A stretch of 64,000 nt of DNA from Kiloniellaceae bacterium. GTDB lineage: Bacteria; Pseudomonadota; Alphaproteobacteria; Kiloniellales; J153. Positions 35,267 through 49,275 of this stretch are shown in pieces. How positions within the stretch are numbered: position 1 is the first letter of the stretch; each line of letters starts with the position of its first letter. Below the pieces are notes generated by a model. That model was given only the letters and a program-made list of their open reading frames with translations, was not told where the DNA came from and did not search any database. A program made the translations under genes and the position numbers. The stretch lies in assembly GCA_021776175.1 (NCBI GenBank), contig JAJFGJ010000016.1, positions 136,107-200,106 of the forward strand, in the 5' to 3' direction.

Positions 35267-35968
35267 ATGCAGCACACGATAGCTCTGGTTGACGACGACC
35301 GGAACATTCTCACCTCAGTCTCGATCGCCCTGGAGGCCGAAGGCTTCAAGGTGCGGACCTACGCCGACGGCGCGGAAGCCTTGCGCGGCCTTTCGGCCAC
35401 CCCGGCCGACATAGCGATCCTGGACATCAAGATGCCGCGCATGGACGGGATGGAGCTACTTGGCCGGATACGCAATTCTTCTAACATGCCGGTGATTTTC
35501 CTGACCTCGAAGGACGACGAGGTGGACGAGGTGCTGGGCTTGCGCCTGGGCGCCGACGACTACATAACCAAGCCGTTCTCGCAGCGCCTCTTGATCGAAC
35601 GAATTCGCGCCCTGCTGCGCCGCGAGCGTAGCGCGCGCGACGACTCCGGTCCCGGTTCCGGCGAAAAACCCATTTTGAGGGGCGATCTGGTGCTCGATCC
35701 GGCGCGCCACCTATGCACCTGGAAGGGTCAAGCGGTCAATTTGACGGTGACCGAATTCCTGATTCTCAAGGCCTTGGCCGCCCGGCTGGGGCACGTCAAG
35801 AGCCGCGATCAGCTGATGGATTCGGCTTACGGCGAATCCATCTACGTCGACGATCGGACCATCGATAGCCACATCAAGCGGCTGCGTAAAAAATTCAAGG
35901 ATATAGACAGCGGTTTCAACGAGATCGAAACCCTTTACGGTGTCGGCTATCGGTATAAGGATCGATAG
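35267..35968 (+). CDS. chvI: Two-component response regulator ChvI
   Basis: OmpR-family regulator of the alphaproteobacterial envelope/acid-stress pathway, 233 residues. The receiver has acidic pocket '[11 protein letters not shown]', phospho-acceptor Asp in '[14 protein letters not shown]', and Lys in '[10 protein letters not shown]'. The winged helix is residues about 135-230, with '[12 protein letters not shown]'-like recognition sequence read here as '[20 protein letters not shown]' and '[13 protein letters not shown]' at the end. It sits 58 bp before chvG, as expected. The ATG at 35267 follows a strong AGGAGG. Confidence 0.95.
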
Positions 35969-36026: not shown

Positions 36027-37679
36027 ATGAGCGCCGAACACGACCCTAAAGGACGATCGGTGGACTTGGCCGCGAGGACGCGGCGCGGGCGCCGGCGGCG
36101 TGGGCTTGGTTCGCCGCTGATCAGGCGGATTCTACTGCTCAATGTCCTGGTTCTCGTCATTCCCGTGCTCGGGCTGCTGCACCTCGACCAATACCGTCAC
36201 ACGCTGATCGATTCCGAGTTGGACAGCTTACGCGTGCAGGCGCGAGCCTTCGCCTTGACCCTGGGCAGCACCGCCGTGGTTGGCACCCCGCGCGGCGAAG
36301 AGCGCCTGATGGCGGTATCGGCCCGCCATTTGATGCGCGTCCTGCTTTACGATACCGGCGTGCGGGCGCGCATCTTCGACCGAAAAGGCGATCTTGTGGC
36401 CGATAGTTTCGTATTGGCCGGGCCCGGCGGCCTGGTTCAGGTGGTGGAGCTTCCGGCGGCCGGCGAAAGCGGAATCCTGGCGGCGCTGGAGCGCTGGTAC
36501 GACAAGGCCGCCGGTTGGCTGCCGTCAAGCGGCGAGCTGCCTCTCTACACGGAGTCGCGCACGCAAACGGCAACCGACTACGAGGAGGTCCAGCGGGCCT
36601 TGTTCGGCGAGGCGCGCGGCGTGGCGCGGGCCGACCGCCGGGGCCGTCTGATTCTCACGGCCGCGGTTCCGGTTCAGCGCTACCGCCAAGTGCTGGGCGC
36701 GCTCATGGTGTCCAAGGGCGGAGTCGAGGTCGACGCGGCCGTGAGCGCCCGCCGCCTGGAGATCATGCTGGTCTTCGGCATCGCCCTGGCGGTTACCGTG
36801 CTGTTATCCTTGTACCTGGCCGGGACCATCGCCCGGCCGATCAGGCGGCTGGCCCTGGCCGCCGATCAGGTGCGCCACGGCAAAGGCCGCACCCATGAAA
36901 TTCCGGATTTCACCCGCCGGGGCGACGAGATTGGCGACCTTTCGGCGGCGCTGCGGGGCATGACGACCGCCTTGTGGGCCCGGCTCGACGCCATCGAGGG
37001 TTTTGCCGCCGATGTGGCGCACGAGATCAGAAACCCGCTGACATCCTTGCGCAGCGCGGTCGAAACCGTGGCCCGGGTCGAGGACCCGGCGCAGCAAAAG
37101 CGCCTTATGTCGATCATCCTCGACGACGTGCAGCGCCTGGACCGCCTGATCGGCGATATATCCGGGGCTTCCCGCCTCGACGCCGAACTGTCGCGGGCCG
37201 AGAACGCGCCCGTGGATATCGCCCACTTGCTCAAGACCCTGGCCGAAACCTACGACGCCACGGCGCCGGCCGCGGGCCCGCGGTTGCGCTTGGATCTCGA
37301 ATCCGGGCGGGACTTGACCGTCATGGGCATGGAAGACCGGCTTGGCCAGGTGGTGCGCAATCTCATGAGCAACGCGGTCACCTTCTCTCCGCCCGATGGC
37401 GAGATCGTGCTGTCCGGCCGCCGCGAGGGGCCGTGGGTGATCGTGGAGGTTATGGATGAAGGGCCCGGCATTCCCGAAACCAAGCTCGCGGCGGTATTCG
37501 ATCGTTTCTATACCGAGCGGCCCAGCGGCGAGAAATTCGGCACCCATTCGGGACTGGGTCTAAGTATCTCGAAACAGATCGTCGAGGCCCATGGCGGCAC
37601 GATCGTGGCGCGGAATCGGGATGGCGGCGAGGATAAGCCGCGCGGGGCGGCATTTACGATCCGCTTGCCGGCGGCGTAA
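36027..37679 (+). CDS. chvG: Sensor histidine kinase ChvG
   Basis: A 550-residue inner-membrane kinase partner of ChvI. A first membrane helix lies at about 30-52 ('ILLLNVLVLVIPVLGLLHL'), a periplasmic sensing domain at about 53-245, and a second helix at about 246-266. A HAMP domain follows. The H-box is 'FAADVAHEIRNPLTSL' with His332, followed by the ATPase boxes 'VVRNLMSNAVTFSPP' and 'VMDEGPGIPETKL'. In relatives the periplasmic part binds ExoR, which was not found here. The conserved order chvI-chvG-hprK-PTS supports the call. Confidence 0.94.
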   Translation: MSAEHDPKGRSVDLAARTRRGRRRRGLGSPLIRRILLLNVLVLVIPVLGLLHLDQYRHTLIDSELDSLRVQARAFALTLGSTAVVGTPRGEERLMAVSARHLMRVLLYDTGVRARIFDRKGDLVADSFVLAGPGGLVQVVELPAAGESGILAALERWYDKAAGWLPSSGELPLYTESRTQTATDYEEVQRALFGEARGVARADRRGRLILTAAVPVQRYRQVLGALMVSKGGVEVDAAVSARRLEIMLVFGIALAVTVLLSLYLAGTIARPIRRLALAADQVRHGKGRTHEIPDFTRRGDEIGDLSAALRGMTTALWARLDAIEGFAADVAHEIRNPLTSLRSAVETVARVEDPAQQKRLMSIILDDVQRLDRLIGDISGASRLDAELSRAENAPVDIAHLLKTLAETYDATAPAAGPRLRLDLESGRDLTVMGMEDRLGQVVRNLMSNAVTFSPPDGEIVLSGRREGPWVIVEVMDEGPGIPETKLAAVFDRFYTERPSGEKFGTHSGLGLSISKQIVEAHGGTIVARNRDGGEDKPRGAAFTIRLPAA

Positions 37680-37692
37680 ACTGACCCCGGCA

Positions 37693-39060
37693 ATGAAAAC
37701 GCAAACCATCCACGCAACCTGTGTCGCGCTCGATGGGCCTTCGGGCCAGAAGGGGATCCTTCTGCGGGGCCCTTCGGGAGCGGGCAAATCCGATCTGGCG
37801 CTGCGATTGATCGACGAGGGAGCGCGCCTGGTCGCGGACGACCGCTGCGAGCTCAGCTTGGACGAAGCAGGCCCAGGCGCGGAGCCCCGCGTGATCGCGC
37901 GCGCGCCGTCCATCCTGGCTGGGCGGATGGAAGCGCGGGGCTTGGGCATCGTCGAGGCGCCCCGGGTGGCCGAAGCGCCGGTCGCCTTGATCGTCGATTT
38001 GGTTCGCGGCGATGCGGTCGAACGCCTGCCGGAGCCCGCCCGCGAGGATCTGCTTGGAGTAGCACTACCGTGCCTGGCGCTCGATCCCTTCGAGGTTTCG
38101 GCGCCGGCCAAGCTGCGCCTGGCCATGCGTCAACTGGCGGCGCCCGCCGCCGCGGCAAGCACGGCCGGAGGCAAAACGGCCAAGACCGAGCGCCGGCGCG
38201 CGGTTCTGGTCACGGGCATGTCCGGCGCCGGGCATTCGACGGCCCTGAAAATTCTCGAGGATGCGGGTTACGAGACCATCGACAACCTGCCGCTGGACCT
38301 GCTCGACGCTGTTTTGCTCGAACCCGAGGCGACCCGCCCCCTGGCGGTTTGCGTGGATACCCGGACCCGCCGATTCGCCGCCGCGACCGTGGTCGAGCAC
38401 CTGCACTATCTGTCCGCCCAACCCGGCCTGGCCGTGACCTTGGTATTTCTCGACTGCCAGGACGACGTCCTCGCGCGCCGCTACACGGAGACACGCCGGC
38501 GCCACCCCCTGGCGCGCGACCGCCCCGTGGCCGACGGTATTTCGGCCGAGCGCGGCCTCATCGCCCCGCTCAAGGCGCGCGCCGACCTGATGCTCGACAC
38601 CTCGGCGTTTTCTCCCGCCGAGCTCGGCCGGGTCTTGGCCGGGCACTTCGATCTGGGGGAAGACGCGGCCATGACGCTGTTCGTGACCTCGTTTTCATAT
38701 CGCCACGGCCTACCGCGCGAGGCCGATCTGGTTTTCGACGTGCGGTTCCTGACCAATCCTCACTACGACCCGGCGCTTCGGCCCTTCGATGGCCGCGACC
38801 CCAAAGTCGCCGCCTATATCGAAAAAGACCCTGAATTCGCGCCCTTCATGGCCCACATGACCGGCTTGCTGGCGCCCTTGCTGCCAAGGTACGAGCGCGA
38901 GGGGAAAAGCTATCTGACGATCGCGCTCGGCTGCACCGGCGGCCGCCATCGCTCGGTCCTGGTCGCGGAGCGGCTTGGCGCCTGGTTCCGCGAGCAAGGC
39001 CGGCCGGCGGAAACCAGCCACCGGGACCTCGAGCCCGGCGGCCAGGCATTACGGGGATGA
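37693..39060 (+). CDS. hprK-rapZ: HPr kinase/phosphorylase fused to RNase adapter RapZ
   Basis: A single 455-residue frame joins two usually separate neighbours. Residues 1-145 are a short HPr kinase: P-loop 'LRGPSGAGKSDLALRLID', then 'LVADDRCELS' and the K-like signature 'GRMEARGLGIVEAP'. A linker of about 20 Ala/Lys-rich residues (146-170) follows. Residues about 171-455 are RapZ/YvcJ: 'VLVTGMSGAGHSTALKILED', 'YETIDNLPLDLLDAV', 'SFSYRHGLPREADLVFDVRF' and 'IALGCTGGRHRSVLVAERLG'. Its P-loop has His181 where Lys is usual. No stop, start or frame break lies between the parts. Expected roles are Ser-phosphorylation of HPr and nucleotide-signal/RNA-turnover control. Confidence 0.92.
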   Translation: MKTQTIHATCVALDGPSGQKGILLRGPSGAGKSDLALRLIDEGARLVADDRCELSLDEAGPGAEPRVIARAPSILAGRMEARGLGIVEAPRVAEAPVALIVDLVRGDAVERLPEPAREDLLGVALPCLALDPFEVSAPAKLRLAMRQLAAPAAAASTAGGKTAKTERRRAVLVTGMSGAGHSTALKILEDAGYETIDNLPLDLLDAVLLEPEATRPLAVCVDTRTRRFAAATVVEHLHYLSAQPGLAVTLVFLDCQDDVLARRYTETRRRHPLARDRPVADGISAERGLIAPLKARADLMLDTSAFSPAELGRVLAGHFDLGEDAAMTLFVTSFSYRHGLPREADLVFDVRFLTNPHYDPALRPFDGRDPKVAAYIEKDPEFAPFMAHMTGLLAPLLPRYEREGKSYLTIALGCTGGRHRSVLVAERLGAWFREQGRPAETSHRDLEPGGQALRG

Positions 39061-39115: not shown

Positions 39116-39520
39116 ATGATCGGAATGGTGCTGGTCACCCACGGGCGGCTCGCCTTGGAATTCATTGCTGCGCTGGAGCATGTCGTGGGGCCGCAGAAGA
39201 ACGTGGCCGCCATTTGCATCGGCCCCGACGACGACATGGAGCAGCGCCGCCGCGAGATTATCGAAAGCGTCGAAAAGGCGGACGATGGCCGCGGAGTCGT
39301 GCTCTTGACCGACATGTTCGGGGGCACCCCGTCCAATCTGGCTATCTCCGTGCTCGATCAAGGGCGGGTCGAGGTAATTGCAGGAGTTAATCTGCCGATG
39401 CTCATAAAGCTAGCCAGTTTGCGCGAGAGCGAGACCTTGGCCTCGGCGGTGGCCCAAGCCCAGGAAGCGGGCCGGAAATATATCAACGTCGCGTCACAGT
39501 TGCTGGCCGACAAAACCTGA
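39116..39520 (+). CDS. PTS EIIA component, mannose family
   Basis: A 134-residue soluble phosphocarrier that accepts phosphate from HPr. The phospho-His is in 'GMVLVTHGRLALEFI' (His9). The 'VVLLTDMFGGTPSNLAI' segment and 'VEVIAGVNLPMLIKL' complete the EIIA(Man) fold. In alphaproteobacteria this protein lacks a sugar permease and serves regulation. It lies between the HprK-RapZ gene and HPr, 55 bp after the former. Confidence 0.94.
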   Translation: MIGMVLVTHGRLALEFIAALEHVVGPQKNVAAICIGPDDDMEQRRREIIESVEKADDGRGVVLLTDMFGGTPSNLAISVLDQGRVEVIAGVNLPMLIKLASLRESETLASAVAQAQEAGRKYINVASQLLADKT

Positions 39521-39547: not shown

Positions 39548-39823
39548 ATGACGGCGTCGGCCACGATTCGTGCCACGATTCGCAATCGGCGGGGTTTGCA
39601 TGCTCGCGCGGCGGCGAAATTCGTTAAATTGGCCGGCGCCTACGACGCGGAGATCACGGTGCGGGCCAATGGCACGGAGGTGCCGGGATTGTCGATCATG
39701 GGCCTGATGATGCTCGCGGCCTCGATCGGATGCGAGCTTTCATTGAGCGCCCGCGGCCCCGATGCCCAGGCCGCCGTGGAAGCCCTGGCGGCGCTGGTCG
39801 GAAAGAAGTTCGATGAAGACTGA
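39548..39823 (+). CDS. ptsH: Phosphocarrier protein HPr (NPr-type)
   Basis: A 91-residue phosphorelay protein between Enzyme I and EIIA. The phospho-His is in 'RNRRGLHARAAAKFVKLAG' and the regulatory serine, target of HPr kinase, is in 'VPGLSIMGLMMLAAS'. Its presence fits the kinase encoded upstream. It overlaps the Enzyme I gene by 11 bases, so translation is coupled. Confidence 0.96.
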   Translation: MTASATIRATIRNRRGLHARAAAKFVKLAGAYDAEITVRANGTEVPGLSIMGLMMLAASIGCELSLSARGPDAQAAVEALAALVGKKFDED

Positions 39824-41660
39824 AAAGCCCGGCAAAAAGACCAAGCGCGCCGCGCCGCGAACCCGGGCGCCGGAAAAACGCGCCAAAGCCAAGGCCGCGG
39901 CGGCCGATCCGTGTGGGCAAGAGGTCATCGAGGGCCTTGGCGTCTCGCCGGGAATCGCGATCGGCCCCGCGCATCTGCGCGACGGCGGCGACGTGCAGGT
40001 GGTCGAGCGCCAGATCGCGAAACGCGAGGTCGAGGGCGAGCTGGAGCGGTTTCAAAATGCCGTCGCGCAGTCCTTGCGCCAGATCTCGAAACTCAAGACC
40101 AAGGCCAAGACGTTTCATGGCACGGCGGCGGAAGAGTTGGGATATCTTCTGGACGCGCACGCCCACATGCTCAAGAGCCGCAGCCTCGTCGGCGGGATCA
40201 AGCACCGCATCCAGGCCAGGCTATGCAACGCCGAAGCGGCGGTCATGGCCGAGATCGGGATCGTCGCGCGGAACTTCGCCGAAATGGACGATGCCTACTT
40301 GCGCTCGCGCGGCCAGGAGGTGCGTGAGGTCGGCCTGAGAATCGTCCGCAATCTGACCAAGGCGTCGTTCAGCGGCTTCGATCACCTGGAGCCGGGCAGC
40401 ATCGTCATCGCGGAAGAGATTACTCCCGCCGATACAGCCCTTATGGATCCGCGCATCATCGGTGGATTCGCCTGCGCGATCGGGGGCGCGGAGGGGCACA
40501 CCGCGATCATGGCCCGCTCGCTCGGCCTGCCGGCGGTCCTGGGCGCCGGCGCCTTGATCGGCGGCGTGAGCAACGGCGATACCGTTATTGTCGACGGCTC
40601 CAACGGCGTCGTCGTGATCAATCCAACCGCCGCATGCCGGAGCAGCTACGAACGCCGGCGCAAGGCGATGGCGCGCGAGACCCAGGCCCTGAGCCGCTTG
40701 CGCAACGTCGAACCGGTCACACGCGACGGGACTCGGGTCACCCTGCTGGCCAACCTCGAATTGCCGCGCGAAATCGGCCAGGCGGTCGCGGCCGGCGCCG
40801 AGGGGATCGGTCTCCTGCGCACGGAATTCCTGTTCATGAATCGCGACGACCTCCCAAGCGAGGACGAGCAGACGGCGGCGCTAAGCGAAATTGTCGAGGC
40901 CATGCCAGGGCGTCCGGTGACCGTGCGGACCCTGGATATCGGCGGCGAGAAGCTAACCTCTTCCCTGGGGGCGCATTTCGCCGAAACCCAGAATCCGGCG
41001 CTTGGCTTGCGCGCGATACGCCTGTCGCTCAAGGAACCCAAGCTATTGGAGACGCAGCTCGCGGCGATGCTGCGCGCCGGCGCGAAGGGTAATCTGCGCA
41101 TCCTCCTGCCCATGATTTCGACGGTCGCGGAGGTTAAGGAAGTCCGCAAGATCCTAACCAGCGTCGCGGCCCGGCTTAAGCGCCGGAAGGTGCGGATCGC
41201 CGACCCCCTGCCGCCCCTCGGCGTTATGATCGAGATCCCGGGCGCCGCGCTGACCGCGGACGCCTTGGCCAAGGTCTCGGATTTCTTCGCCATCGGCAGT
41301 AACGATCTGACCATGTATACGTTGGCGATCGACCGGGGCGAGGAAAGCGTCGCCCATCTTTATAACCCGCTGCATCCCAGTGTCCTTAGGCTCATGCAAT
41401 TCGCCATTCAGGCGGCGCTGCGCGCCCGTATTCCGATCTCCATTTGCGGCGAGATCGCCGGAGACGCGCGTTTCACGGCCTTGAACCTGGGGTTGGGCGT
41501 GCGGGAGCTGTCCATGGGCGCCAACGCCCTGCCACGAATCAAAAGCCGTATTCTGAACCTGGACATGCAAGCCGCGACACAGCGGGCGCAGATGATAATG
41601 GATCAATACGATGCCGGACGAATCGCCGCCCTGCTCGACGATTTCAACGATGTTAGCTAG
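39813..41660 (+). CDS. Phosphoenolpyruvate-protein phosphotransferase (Enzyme I)
   Basis: Transfers phosphate from PEP to HPr. The 615-residue protein opens with a Lys/Ala-rich segment (residues 1-30), then the swivelling domain with catalytic His in 'GGAEGHTAIMARSLGLPAV', and the PEP-binding barrel with 'EGIGLLRTEFLFMNRDDLPS', 'VRTLDIGGEKL', 'FFAIGSNDLTMYTLAIDRG' and 'SICGEIAGDARF'. No N-terminal GAF domain, typical of PtsP (EI-Ntr), is present; this is the short PtsI-like type used in the alphaproteobacterial regulatory PTS. I chose the ATG at 39813, which overlaps HPr. Confidence 0.93.
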   Translation: MKTEKPGKKTKRAAPRTRAPEKRAKAKAAAADPCGQEVIEGLGVSPGIAIGPAHLRDGGDVQVVERQIAKREVEGELERFQNAVAQSLRQISKLKTKAKTFHGTAAEELGYLLDAHAHMLKSRSLVGGIKHRIQARLCNAEAAVMAEIGIVARNFAEMDDAYLRSRGQEVREVGLRIVRNLTKASFSGFDHLEPGSIVIAEEITPADTALMDPRIIGGFACAIGGAEGHTAIMARSLGLPAVLGAGALIGGVSNGDTVIVDGSNGVVVINPTAACRSSYERRRKAMARETQALSRLRNVEPVTRDGTRVTLLANLELPREIGQAVAAGAEGIGLLRTEFLFMNRDDLPSEDEQTAALSEIVEAMPGRPVTVRTLDIGGEKLTSSLGAHFAETQNPALGLRAIRLSLKEPKLLETQLAAMLRAGAKGNLRILLPMISTVAEVKEVRKILTSVAARLKRRKVRIADPLPPLGVMIEIPGAALTADALAKVSDFFAIGSNDLTMYTLAIDRGEESVAHLYNPLHPSVLRLMQFAIQAALRARIPISICGEIAGDARFTALNLGLGVRELSMGANALPRIKSRILNLDMQAATQRAQMIMDQYDAGRIAALLDDFNDVS

Positions 41661-41816: not shown

Positions 41817-43217
41817 ATGACCGAATTCACCGATTTTGAGATCAAGGATATCTCCCTCGCCGGCTGGGGCCGCAAGGAACTCGATATCGCCGAATCCGAG
41901 ATGCCGGGATTGATGGCGCTGCGCGAGGAGTTCGGGGCGGCGAAGCCGCTCAAGGGCGCGCGCGTGGCCGGCTCGCTGCACATGACCATCCAGACCGCGG
42001 TCTTGATCGAAACCCTCAAGGTCCTGGGGGCGGACCTTCGTTGGGTGTCTTGCAACATCTACTCGACCCAGGACCATGCAGCGGCCGCGATCGCCAAGGC
42101 CGAGATACCGGTTTTCGCTTACAAGGGCGAAACGCTCGCCGAGTATTGGGACTTCACTCACCGCCTGTTCGAATGGGGCGACGGCGGGGCGCCGAATATG
42201 ATTCTGGACGACGGCGGCGACGCCACCCTGCTGGTTCACCTGGGCATGCGCGCGGAACAGGATATATCGCTGGTGTCCAAGCCGGGGACCGAGGAAGAGG
42301 AATTCATGTTCGCCGCCATCAAGAAACGCCTGGAAAGCCAGCCGGGCTGGTACACGAAGATGGGCAAGGACATTCGCGGCGTCACGGAAGAAACCACCAC
42401 GGGCGTGAACCGGCTTTATCAAATGGAAAAGCAGGGAAGCCTTCTTTTCCCCGCCATCAACGTCAACGACTCGGTGACCAAATCCAAGTTCGATAACCTC
42501 TACGGCTGCCGGGAAAGCCTGGTCGACGGCATTCGCCGCGCCACCGACGTGATGATGTCGGGCAAGGTCGCGGTGGTCGCCGGCTTCGGCGATGTCGGCA
42601 AGGGATCCTCCGCTTCCCTGCGCAACGCCGGATGCCGGGTTCTGGTCACCGAGATCGATCCGATCTGCGCCCTGCAGGCGGCCATGGAAGGCTATGAGGT
42701 GGTCACCATGGAGGAGGCGGCGCCGCGCGGCGACCTCTTCGTCACCACGACCGGCAATTTCGACGTCATCACCATCGATCACATGCGGGCCATGAAAGAC
42801 CGCGCGATCGTGTGTAACATCGGCCATTTCGATAACGAGATTCAGGTCGGCGCGCTGCGCAACTTGACCTGGAACAACATCAAGCCGCAGGTCGACGAAA
42901 TCGCCTTCGCCGACGGTAAGCGGATCATTTTGCTGGCCGAGGGCCGCCTGGTGAACCTGGGCTGCGCGACCGGGCATCCCAGCTTCGTGATGAGCGCTTC
43001 TTTCACCAATCAGGTATTGGCGCAAATAGAGCTTTGGACCAAGCCGGACGCCTACGACAAGAAGGTCTATGTCCTGCCCAAGCATCTGGACGAGAAGGTC
43101 GCGGCGTTGCACCTGGCCAAGGTCGGGGCGAACTTGAGCAAGTTGAGCCAGGAGCAGGCCGATTATATCGGCGTTTCGACCGAAGGCCCCTTCAAGCCGG
43201 AAACCTACCGCTACTGA
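41817..43217 (+). CDS. ahcY: Adenosylhomocysteinase
   Basis: Splits S-adenosylhomocysteine into homocysteine and adenosine with bound NAD, keeping methylation going. The 466-residue sequence has '[20 protein letters not shown]', '[17 protein letters not shown]', the NAD-binding '[20 protein letters not shown]' and '[14 protein letters not shown]', ending in the family's 'KPETYRY'. I chose the ATG at 41817 with the purine-rich 'aaaggacgag' ahead. The 156 bp before it were checked for an SAH riboswitch and none could be supported. Confidence 0.97.
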
Positions 43218-46890: not shown

Positions 46891-47024
46891 GGCGCCCCGC
46901 TGGTTCGCCAAGCAGAAACACGGCCGGCGCGATATTGCAAGGCTTGACCCTGGGCGCGGCGCGACAGGGACGCCGGCGTTTCCCCGGTTGCCGCCCCAGG
47001 TTGCGCCCGCTACAAGCTCGGCCT

Positions 47025-47513
47025 ATGGCAGCGCCGCTTCCCCGCTCCGTGACACTGACCCTGGACCTGCCCGATGCGGCGGCGACCGCCGCCCTGGCGC
47101 GGGCCGTGGCCGGACGCGCGCGCCAAGGCGATGTCATCGCCTTGTCCGGCGATCTGGGTGCCGGCAAGACGCACTTCGCGCGCGCTTTCATCCATGCCCT
47201 ATCCGGTGACGAGGCGGAAACCGTGCCCAGCCCCACCTTTACCTTGGTGCAGGTCTACGAACGCACGCCGGCGCCGGTTTGGCACTTCGATCTTTATCGC
47301 CTGGAGCAACCCGAAGAGGTTTATGAGTTGGGCTTCGAGGACGCCCTGGCCCAGGGTATCTCCCTGATCGAATGGCCGGAGCGCCTGGGCCCGCTTTTGC
47401 CGCGCGACCGGCTCGACATCGCGCTGGCTTTCACCGAGAATCCGGACGCACGCCTGGCCGCGCTTAGCGGTCATGGGAACTGGGCGGGGCGCTGCGGGGA
47501 CTTGGCGCCATGA
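47025..47513 (+). CDS. tsaE: tRNA threonylcarbamoyladenosine biosynthesis ATPase TsaE
   Basis: A 162-residue ATPase of the TsaBDE complex that makes t6A37 in tRNA. The P-loop is 'LSGDLGAGKTHFARAF', followed by 'VPSPTFTLVQVYE' and the Walker B-like 'WHFDLYRLE', then 'ISLIEWPERLGPLLP'. I chose the ATG at 47025 because the family fold begins after it; the frame is open 30 codons further. It overlaps amgK as ATGA. It lies downstream of divL. Confidence 0.93.
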   Translation: MAAPLPRSVTLTLDLPDAAATAALARAVAGRARQGDVIALSGDLGAGKTHFARAFIHALSGDEAETVPSPTFTLVQVYERTPAPVWHFDLYRLEQPEEVYELGFEDALAQGISLIEWPERLGPLLPRDRLDIALAFTENPDARLAALSGHGNWAGRCGDLAP

Positions 47514-48544
47514 CCGTGAACCGAGATGCCTCGATCGCGGCTTTCCTCGCCACCGCCGGCTGGGACGGGGCGGAGCGCCGCCTCTTGGCCGCCGATGCTT
47601 CCTTTCGCCGCTACGACCGGGTCGCGCGCGGGAACGAACGCGCGGTCCTCATGGACGCCCCGCCGCCCAAGGAAAGCGTGGCGGCGTTCCTGCGGGTCGC
47701 GCGGCGGCTGATCGACCTGGGTTTGAGCGCGCCACGGCCGCTGCATATGGATGAGCCGGCCGGGTTGCTGCTGCTGGAAGATTTCGGCGACCGCACCTTC
47801 ACCCGCGCCCTGGCGCAGGGGGTGGATGAAGCCGCCTTGTATGGCCTGGCGGCCGATACCTTGATCGCCCTGCATCGCGCCTGGCGGCCACGGGCGCGAG
47901 AAGGCGAAGACCTGCCGCCTTACGATGACGCGCGCCTGCTCGGGGAAGCGGCCCTGCTCACCGAGTGGTTTCTGCCCGCGGTGCGCGGCCTGGAAACTTC
48001 CGATAGCCTCAAGGCTTCGTACCTCGAGGCGTGGCGGGCGGTTTTGCCGAAGGCGCGCGGGGTCCCGGATACCCTGGTCCTGCGCGACTATCACGTCGAT
48101 AATCTCATGCTGCTGGAAGGCCGCGACGGAATCGCGGCGTGCGGCTTGCTCGACTTTCAGGACGCGGTCATAGGACCCATATCTTATGATGTCGTCTCCT
48201 TGCTGGAGGATGCCCGGCGCGATATTCCGCCCGCGATCGTGGAGGCCATGCTGACCCGTTACCTCGATGCCTTCCCCGGTCTGAACCGGGCCGCGTTCCA
48301 GGACTCTTACGCCATCCTGGGGGCGCAGCGCGCGGCCAAGATCATCGGGATTTTCACCCGCCTGCAACGGCGCGACGCCAAGGACGGATACTTGCGCCAC
48401 GTTCCAAGGGTTTGGCGATGGCTCGAGGCGGGATTGGAGAAACCGGTCCTGGCGCCGGTCAAGGCCTGGTTCGACCGCGAGGTGCCGGCCGAACACCGCA
48501 TCGCCCCGCCCGCCGACGACCCGCCCACGGGCGCGCGGCCATGA
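47510..48544 (+). CDS. amgK: N-acetylmuramate/N-acetylglucosamine kinase AmgK-like phosphotransferase
   Basis: A 344-residue aminoglycoside-phosphotransferase-fold kinase. The Brenner motif is 'LVLRDYHVDNLMLLEG', and 'GLLDFQDAVIGPISYDVVSL' supplies the metal-binding Asp. With MurU next to it this is the anomeric sugar kinase of the MurNAc recycling route that bypasses de novo UDP-MurNAc synthesis. It overlaps tsaE before and murU after. The N-terminal 'SFRRYDRVARGNERAVLMD' matches the nucleotide lobe. Confidence 0.9.
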   Translation: MTVNRDASIAAFLATAGWDGAERRLLAADASFRRYDRVARGNERAVLMDAPPPKESVAAFLRVARRLIDLGLSAPRPLHMDEPAGLLLLEDFGDRTFTRALAQGVDEAALYGLAADTLIALHRAWRPRAREGEDLPPYDDARLLGEAALLTEWFLPAVRGLETSDSLKASYLEAWRAVLPKARGVPDTLVLRDYHVDNLMLLEGRDGIAACGLLDFQDAVIGPISYDVVSLLEDARRDIPPAIVEAMLTRYLDAFPGLNRAAFQDSYAILGAQRAAKIIGIFTRLQRRDAKDGYLRHVPRVWRWLEAGLEKPVLAPVKAWFDREVPAEHRIAPPADDPPTGARP

Positions 48545-49275
48545 CGGCCGTCCCTAAACGGGCCATGATCCTGGCCGCCGGCCTGGGTGAGCGCATGCGG
48601 CCCTTGAGCGATTCCCGGCCCAAGCCCCTGATCGAAGTGCGCGGCCGCGCGATGATCGATTCCGTCCTCGACCGTCTGGACGCGGCCGGGGTGCGCGAGG
48701 CGGTGGTCAACTTGCACTACCTGGGGCATATGATCGAGGCCCATTTGAAGGATCGGGCGCGGCCGCGGGTTTCGTTTTCGCCCGAGGCGGATCGCTTGGA
48801 AACCGGCGGCGGCGTGCGCAACGCCCTGCCGCTGCTCGGCAAGAAAGCTTTTTTCGTCATTAATGGCGATATCTGCTGGTTGGACGGCTGCAGCCCGGCC
48901 TTGCACCGCCTGGCCGGCGCCTGGGACGGCGGCAAGATGGATGCCCTGCTGCTCGCCCATCCCACGGCCTTCGCGGTCGGCTACGAGGGGCGCGGCGACT
49001 TTATTCTGGGGCCCGGCGGCCAACTGCGCCGCCGCAGGGAGCGCGAAGTCGCCCCCTTCGTCTTCGCCGGCATGCAAATTCTCCACCCGCGCCTGTTCGA
49101 CGGCGCGCCGGACGGCGCCTTCTCTCTCAACCGCCTCTACGATGCGGCGGCCGAGCGCGGCCGTCTCTGGGGTCTGCGCCACGACGGCGAATGGTTTCAT
49201 GTCGGCACGCCCGAGGACCTCCACGAAGTCGAAGATGAGCTGCATCATCTGAGTGTTCACTCGGTGCACCGGTGA
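48541..49275 (+). CDS. murU: N-acetylmuramate alpha-1-phosphate uridylyltransferase MurU
   Basis: A 244-residue sugar nucleotidyltransferase giving UDP-MurNAc. The signature 'RAMILAAGLGERMRPLSDSR' with following Lys ('PKPLIEV'), 'VINGDICW' (metal Asp), and 'EWFHVGTPEDLHEVEDEL' at the end fit the family. The ATG at 48541 overlaps the amgK stop. The last codons overlap the GTG start of addB. Together amgK and murU make a fosfomycin-insensitive cell-wall recycling branch, as known in Pseudomonas. Confidence 0.92.
   Translation: MTAVPKRAMILAAGLGERMRPLSDSRPKPLIEVRGRAMIDSVLDRLDAAGVREAVVNLHYLGHMIEAHLKDRARPRVSFSPEADRLETGGGVRNALPLLGKKAFFVINGDICWLDGCSPALHRLAGAWDGGKMDALLLAHPTAFAVGYEGRGDFILGPGGQLRRRREREVAPFVFAGMQILHPRLFDGAPDGAFSLNRLYDAAAERGRLWGLRHDGEWFHVGTPEDLHEVEDELHHLSVHSVHR

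Follow-up and report, generated by a model that had tools for sequence, protein, structure and literature searches.

The gene that lies between chvG and the PTS genes in the analysed 64,000-nucleotide stretch of Kiloniellaceae bacterium DNA (hereafter the window) raises the question of whether HPr kinase (HprK) and RapZ are truly joined in one protein and, if so, what the two halves might do together. In the window, a single stop-free open frame encodes a short HprK of the alphaproteobacterial type, which is followed by a disordered linker and then by a full-length RapZ (Table 1). Pfam assigned Hpr_kinase_C to residues 4–90, RapZ-like_N to residues 171–319 and the RapZ C-domain to residues 327–447 of the protein. 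Both RapZ domains scored above their cut-offs (127.3 and 154.1 bits), and the NCBIfam RapZ model (NF003828) reached 323.5 on the fusion protein against a cut-off of 244. The gene occurs in a single copy in the window's genome. The preliminary description had proposed a continuous frame running from HprK into RapZ, and the open frame with the Pfam and NCBIfam domains on both of its sides bears this out. Its other positional claims proved to be accurate as well: the Walker A motif of HprK falls inside the 37741–37800 interval given for the P-loop, the Walker A of the fused RapZ, GMSGAGHST, places a His exactly at residue 181 instead of Lys, and ChvI, ChvG, EIIA, HPr, and EI flank the fusion in the order ChvI-ChvG-fusion-EIIA-HPr-EI, as expected of the ChvG–PTS operon that had been recognized.

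Table 1. Features of the fused gene and its operon (positions are those of the window)
Feature	Position	Strand	Basis or remark
ChvI-type response regulator	35267..35968	+	
ChvG-type sensor histidine kinase	36027..37679	+	directly upstream of the fusion
HprK-RapZ fusion protein, 455 aa	37693..39060	+	open frame; Pfam/NCBIfam; same fusion in 43/61 genomes of the order
HprK kinase domain, short alphaproteobacterial type, residues 1–148	37693..38136	+	PF07475; PDB sequence matches 2qmh, 1jb1, 3tqf; HprK/P fold matches
HprK Walker A GPSGAGKS, residues 26–33, Lys32 intact	37768..37791	+	sequence
HprK signature MEARGLGIV	37927..37953	+	sequence vs consensus of PMC2937029
Disordered linker core, residues 152–164	38146..38184	+	pLDDT < 50; sequence and length unconserved among congeners, frame kept
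RapZ N-terminal P-loop domain, residues 168–319	38194..38649	+	Pfam PF03668
Codon CAT for His181, in place of the Walker A Lys	38233..38235	+	sequence; four congeners also encode His, by CAT or CAC
RapZ C-terminal metabolite domain, residues 327–447	38671..39033	+	Pfam PF22740; fold match 5o5s, 1.0 A, TM 0.95 of target
Pocket element NPHYDP, His357 = E. coli His190	38755..38772	+	alignment; pocket residues from PMC5737377
Pocket loop GCTGGRHRS = C-X5-R-S (Cys414, Thr415, Gly416, His419, Arg420)	38929..38955	+	sequence; model strand 407–414, helix 420–434
EIIA, mannose family (ManX/PtsM)	39116..39520	+	
HPr/NPr; His18 and Ser49 = expected phosphorylation sites	39548..39823	+	sites read from sequence
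Enzyme I of PTS	39813..41660	+	
Adenosylhomocysteinase	41823..43217	+	operon context

A structure model of the fusion was built from the window protein together with nine loci (L031–L039). It had a mean pLDDT of 80, with residues 152–164 of the linker disordered, and foldseek matched it separately to E. coli RapZ, the N-domain of Rv1421, and several structures of HprK/P. As its pTM was 0.50, the model gives no placing of one half relative to the other.

The same fusion was found in three species of the genus, at 75–85% identity. In the order as a whole, 43 of the 61 sampled genomes carried fused genes and the other 18 had hprK and rapZ adjacent, while among 79 genomes or records from other orders of the class the pair was adjacent and unfused in 68, fused in two, and undecided in nine. 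Since frame lengths obtained from the genome search may span stops, these fusions were re-scored on the DNA by frame and stops, which struck out false ones (e.g., G020, G282, and G304). The aligned segments of the 90 unfused pairs found were separated by 14–321 nt. The identical open frame in three congeners and in most of the order ruled out an assembly or frameshift artefact, and this conservation excludes chance, too. The preliminary description would have given up the fusion if relatives kept the genes separate and the join were unique to this assembly; for the nearest relatives, the opposite is true, as the congeners are fused. Both halves are under purifying selection within the genus (dN/dS between congeners is 0.12–0.28 for HprK and 0.11–0.18 for RapZ). 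The linker showed no constraint between congeners, yet its frame was never lost. The fusion is real and conserved, and, as no earlier report of an HprK-RapZ fusion was found in the open-licence literature, it is apparently a previously undescribed combination of two known families.

A real and conserved join could still have arisen by neutral read-through, that is, by loss of the stop between two co-translated neighbours, leaving two independent proteins on one chain with no gain. Several observations are in line with this: hprK and rapZ are already neighbours across the class, the linkers are unconserved, a Met that could start a separate RapZ is present in the linker at 22 of the 49 fused loci, and the fused or unfused state switches at least seven times on the RapZ tree, although this was a quick tree without a mixture model and the count serves as a rough guide. 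Such repeated changes mean that joining and splitting recur where both genes adjoin. However, the frame is maintained across linkers of 12–67 residues in most of an order, a scan of the window linker for ATG, GTG, and TTG found none, and one fusion retained its join despite the loss of a whole domain. We therefore regard read-through without any gain as rather unlikely. The class survey also contained complete genomes that matched HprK alone and others that matched RapZ alone, thus neither protein strictly needs the other.

The domain-deleted fusion was found in a genome of another order (G129), the one genome sampled from that order, so this form rests on one assembly, which is 100% complete in 7 contigs and whose operon has no sign of damage. 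The operon (locus L177) reads ChvI-ChvG-[HprK-RapZ C-domain]-EIIA-HPr-EI-AhcY, and the joined protein of 303 residues (L103:101-1012, contig C6) passes from HprK straight onto the RapZ C-domain, with the N-domain absent. The RapZ N-domain was not found in the whole G129 genome, in a search that matched it in the window's genome and two others. This suggests that the RapZ C-domain is the part with which HprK works, and that RapZ, when attached to HprK, can do without its P-loop domain. A full HprK-RapZ fusion was present in yet another order of the class (L149, G321 contig C24), and its RapZ has the canonical Lys in Walker A.

The HprK half was recognized by Hpr_kinase_C with 54.7 bits (gathering score 33.3). 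The Pfam match extends to position 84 of the 171 positions of the profile, and the N-terminal domain and the phosphorylase region of Firmicute HprK are absent; the model of full-length HprK, TIGR00679, gave 59.8 against a cut-off of 240, so the protein is below the NCBIfam full-length cut-offs. Lack of the phosphorylase region is typical of alphaproteobacterial HprK (PMC2937029), which lowers the claim of a phosphorylase but not that of a kinase. Compared with the HprK consensus (I,L,M)E(I,V)RG(I,L,M,V)G(I,V)(I,L,M) (PMC2937029), the signature has Ala at position 3, where Ile or Val is expected, and Val at position 9, and the remainder fits. The HprK of Brucella melitensis (PMC2937029) has the same short form, without the N-terminal domain or phosphorylase region, and lies in the same bvrR-bvrS (chvI-chvG) and PTS neighbourhood, but it is a separate protein, whereas the window HprK has RapZ as a C-terminal extension. 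In vitro, the short Brucella enzyme acts as a kinase on Ser61 of NPr; Pi inhibits it, and it hardly removes the phosphate from P-Ser-NPr. In a two-hybrid matrix that had RapZ outside its scope, it bound NPr and not the two-component proteins (PMC2937029).

The unusual Walker A residue of the RapZ half was compared with that of fused and unfused relatives. In the window's order, the Lys site is occupied by Arg in 53 genomes and by His in 8, while in other orders of the class Arg occurs in 43, Lys in 23, Leu in 5, Met in 4, and His in 3. Lys is thus missing in 55 of 78 RapZ proteins from these other orders and cannot be family-defining in this class. Three genomes with unfused genes have His, nine from other orders have Met or Leu, and one fused RapZ (L149) has Lys. 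Neither is His restricted to fused proteins nor Lys to unfused ones; the substitution is therefore not tied to fusion, and His181 as a consequence of the join was ruled out. In the preliminary description, the usual Lys was considered to have been replaced by His perhaps because the HprK P-loop supplies ATP, which would make the fused RapZ a protein without nucleotide binding. The K22A mutant of B. subtilis YvcJ lost the binding of both ATP and UDP-GlcNAc (PMC7525490), the Walker A of the HprK half is intact, and one lineage dropped the RapZ N-domain after fusion, all of which speak for such a division of labour. Nevertheless, Arg is the commonest residue class-wide in fused and unfused proteins alike, and the N-domain of Rv1421, which has Arg and no Walker A Lys, still binds UDP and UDP-GlcNAc (PMC11229554). 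We consider it very improbable that HprK compensates for a RapZ that is unable to bind nucleotides, although His181 may still be of consequence, given the effect of K22A in YvcJ. YvcJ (PMC7525490) and Rv1421 (PMC11229554) are also akin to the window protein in being RapZ homologues outside the GlmZ system, but no HprK link appears in these papers and they have GlmR neighbours.

RapZ had further been taken for an RNA-turnover adapter, and this part of the preliminary description found no support. In E. coli RapZ, GlmZ binding was abolished or strongly impaired by the quadruple K270A, K281A, R282A, K283A substitution or by deletion of the five C-terminal residues (PMC7430671). According to the alignment and the tail sequence, the window protein has Arg, Pro, Gly, and Gly at the four positions, so that three of the RNA-binding residues are gone, and the Lys/Arg triplet of the RNA-binding tail was found in 0 of 134 RapZ tails across the class. 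GlmZ (RF00083) was not found in the window's genome, which is approximately 90% complete, under conditions where the E. coli control matched; glmS is present. The RNA-binding domain is confined to Enterobacteriaceae (PMC7073468). In view of the missing basic tail and the negative GlmZ search, we rejected the adapter role; the name is likely to mislead annotation, and RapZ proteins of this class ought not to be called RNase E adapters.

While it differs from E. coli RapZ (PMC5737377, PMC7073468) by the His in Walker A, the lack of the basic tail, the absence of a GlmZ match in its genome, and its position behind a kinase, the RapZ half shares with it the two domains, the full NCBIfam RapZ score, and identical residues in the sugar-phosphate pocket: His357, Thr415, Gly416, His419, and Arg420 are equivalent to E. 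coli H190, T248, G249, H252, and R253. In all 140 aligned RapZ rows of the class sample, the pocket loop GCTGGxHRS retains its Cys, two Gly, His, and Arg unchanged. Cys414, Arg420, and Ser421 agree with the C-X5-R-(S/T) signature of Cys-phosphatase type, and they lie between a strand and a helix (as judged from sequence and model). No remark on a C-X5-R-S in RapZ was found in the literature examined, the scope of which excluded the primary reports of the phosphatase activities mentioned below.

As HprK of this type barely dephosphorylates its product and phosphatase activity has been reported in RapZ homologues, RapZ as the missing phosphatase becomes a concrete hypothesis. The fusion would then combine a kinase without phosphorylase and a phosphatase, the C-X5-R-S loop of which, resembling the P-loop of Cys phosphatases, would take the phosphate off Ser49 of HPr. 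The C-X5-R is kept in all 140 RapZ rows and also, as GCAGGQHRS, where the N-domain was lost; in the model, the strand ends at Cys414 and the helix starts at Arg420, which is the PTP arrangement. The same pocket of E. coli RapZ binds sulfate through the backbone of T248/G249 and through H252 and R253 (PMC5737377), and C247A and C247S abolished the function of E. coli RapZ, for which the authors suggested a catalytic SH (PMC9841335). Phosphatase activity is reported for YvcJ (PMC7525490), and an ATPase/phosphatase activity for the Xanthomonas protein encoded beside hprK (PMC6916182). The C-domain, however, matches the RapZ CTD 5o5s and is PFK-like (PMC5737377); a PTP, LMW-PTP or Cdc25 fold was not recognized in it, and no PTP was among the 50 foldseek matches listed. 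The phenotype of the E. coli C247 variants can be explained by their loss of RNA binding (PMC9841335), there are genomes with HprK but without a RapZ match, and the reports examined map the phosphatase activity neither to a domain nor to P-Ser-HPr. Considering these, we find it improbable that the fusion is a kinase–phosphatase pair. Less probable still is its fullest version, where RapZ, by a C-domain pocket that converged on a Cys-phosphatase site, would be the P-Ser-HPr phosphatase missing from bacteria whose HprK lacks phosphorylase activity. The fusion would then be a one-chain kinase/phosphatase assembled from two unrelated parts and gated by cell-wall sugar phosphates.

The Xanthomonas gene mentioned above, XC_1307 (HpaP), lies in the order hprK-XC_1307-ptsH, hence hprK adjoins a reported ATPase/phosphatase gene there (PMC6916182). 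As we read PMC7073468, its product is a RapZ-type protein. Unlike in the window, these are separate genes, and the host is a gammaproteobacterium.

Rather than a product of read-through or a phosphatase pair, we are inclined to see in the fusion an HPr(Ser) kinase joined to its long-standing neighbour RapZ, where the RapZ half senses wall precursors and sets the kinase output. The target of the HprK half would be Ser49 of HPr, whose gene is the second one downstream, and its phosphorylation would slow the PEP-driven transfer of phosphate from EI via HPr to the EIIA proteins. The RapZ C-domain pocket would bind sugar phosphates of GlcN6P type, and the N-domain nucleotides or UDP-sugars, by which the RapZ half could tune the attached kinase, and perhaps the neighbouring ChvG as well, to the supply of envelope precursors. 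The fusion would hold HprK and RapZ in one complex at 1:1. We infer the kinase activity on the operon's HPr, the identity of the ligand, and any control between the halves. In E. coli, RapZ is a GlcN6P-binding protein that stimulates the histidine kinase QseE to autophosphorylate, which its authors proposed as the ancestral role (PMC7073468).

Downstream of EI, adenosylhomocysteinase, a PAS histidine kinase, TsaE, an AmgK-like kinase, and a nucleotidyltransferase are encoded on the same strand. The last three, TsaE, the AmgK-like sugar kinase, and the nucleotidyltransferase, occupy 46935–49272 of the window. An AmgK-like kinase and a nucleotidyltransferase take part in wall-sugar recycling, which suggests a wall-recycling block near the PTS–ChvG operon. 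This neighbourhood is consistent with a cell-wall-precursor signal, without being proof of it.

Two questions meet in this protein: what RapZ does outside enteric bacteria, where it has no agreed function, and how P-Ser-HPr is dephosphorylated in alphaproteobacteria. The conserved fusion suggests that HprK and RapZ share one process; that the C-domain is the part needed by it is suggested by the natural HprK-RapZ C-domain protein. By joining the two proteins, the fusion puts both the function of RapZ and the dephosphorylation of P-Ser-HPr within reach of a simple assay of one polypeptide.
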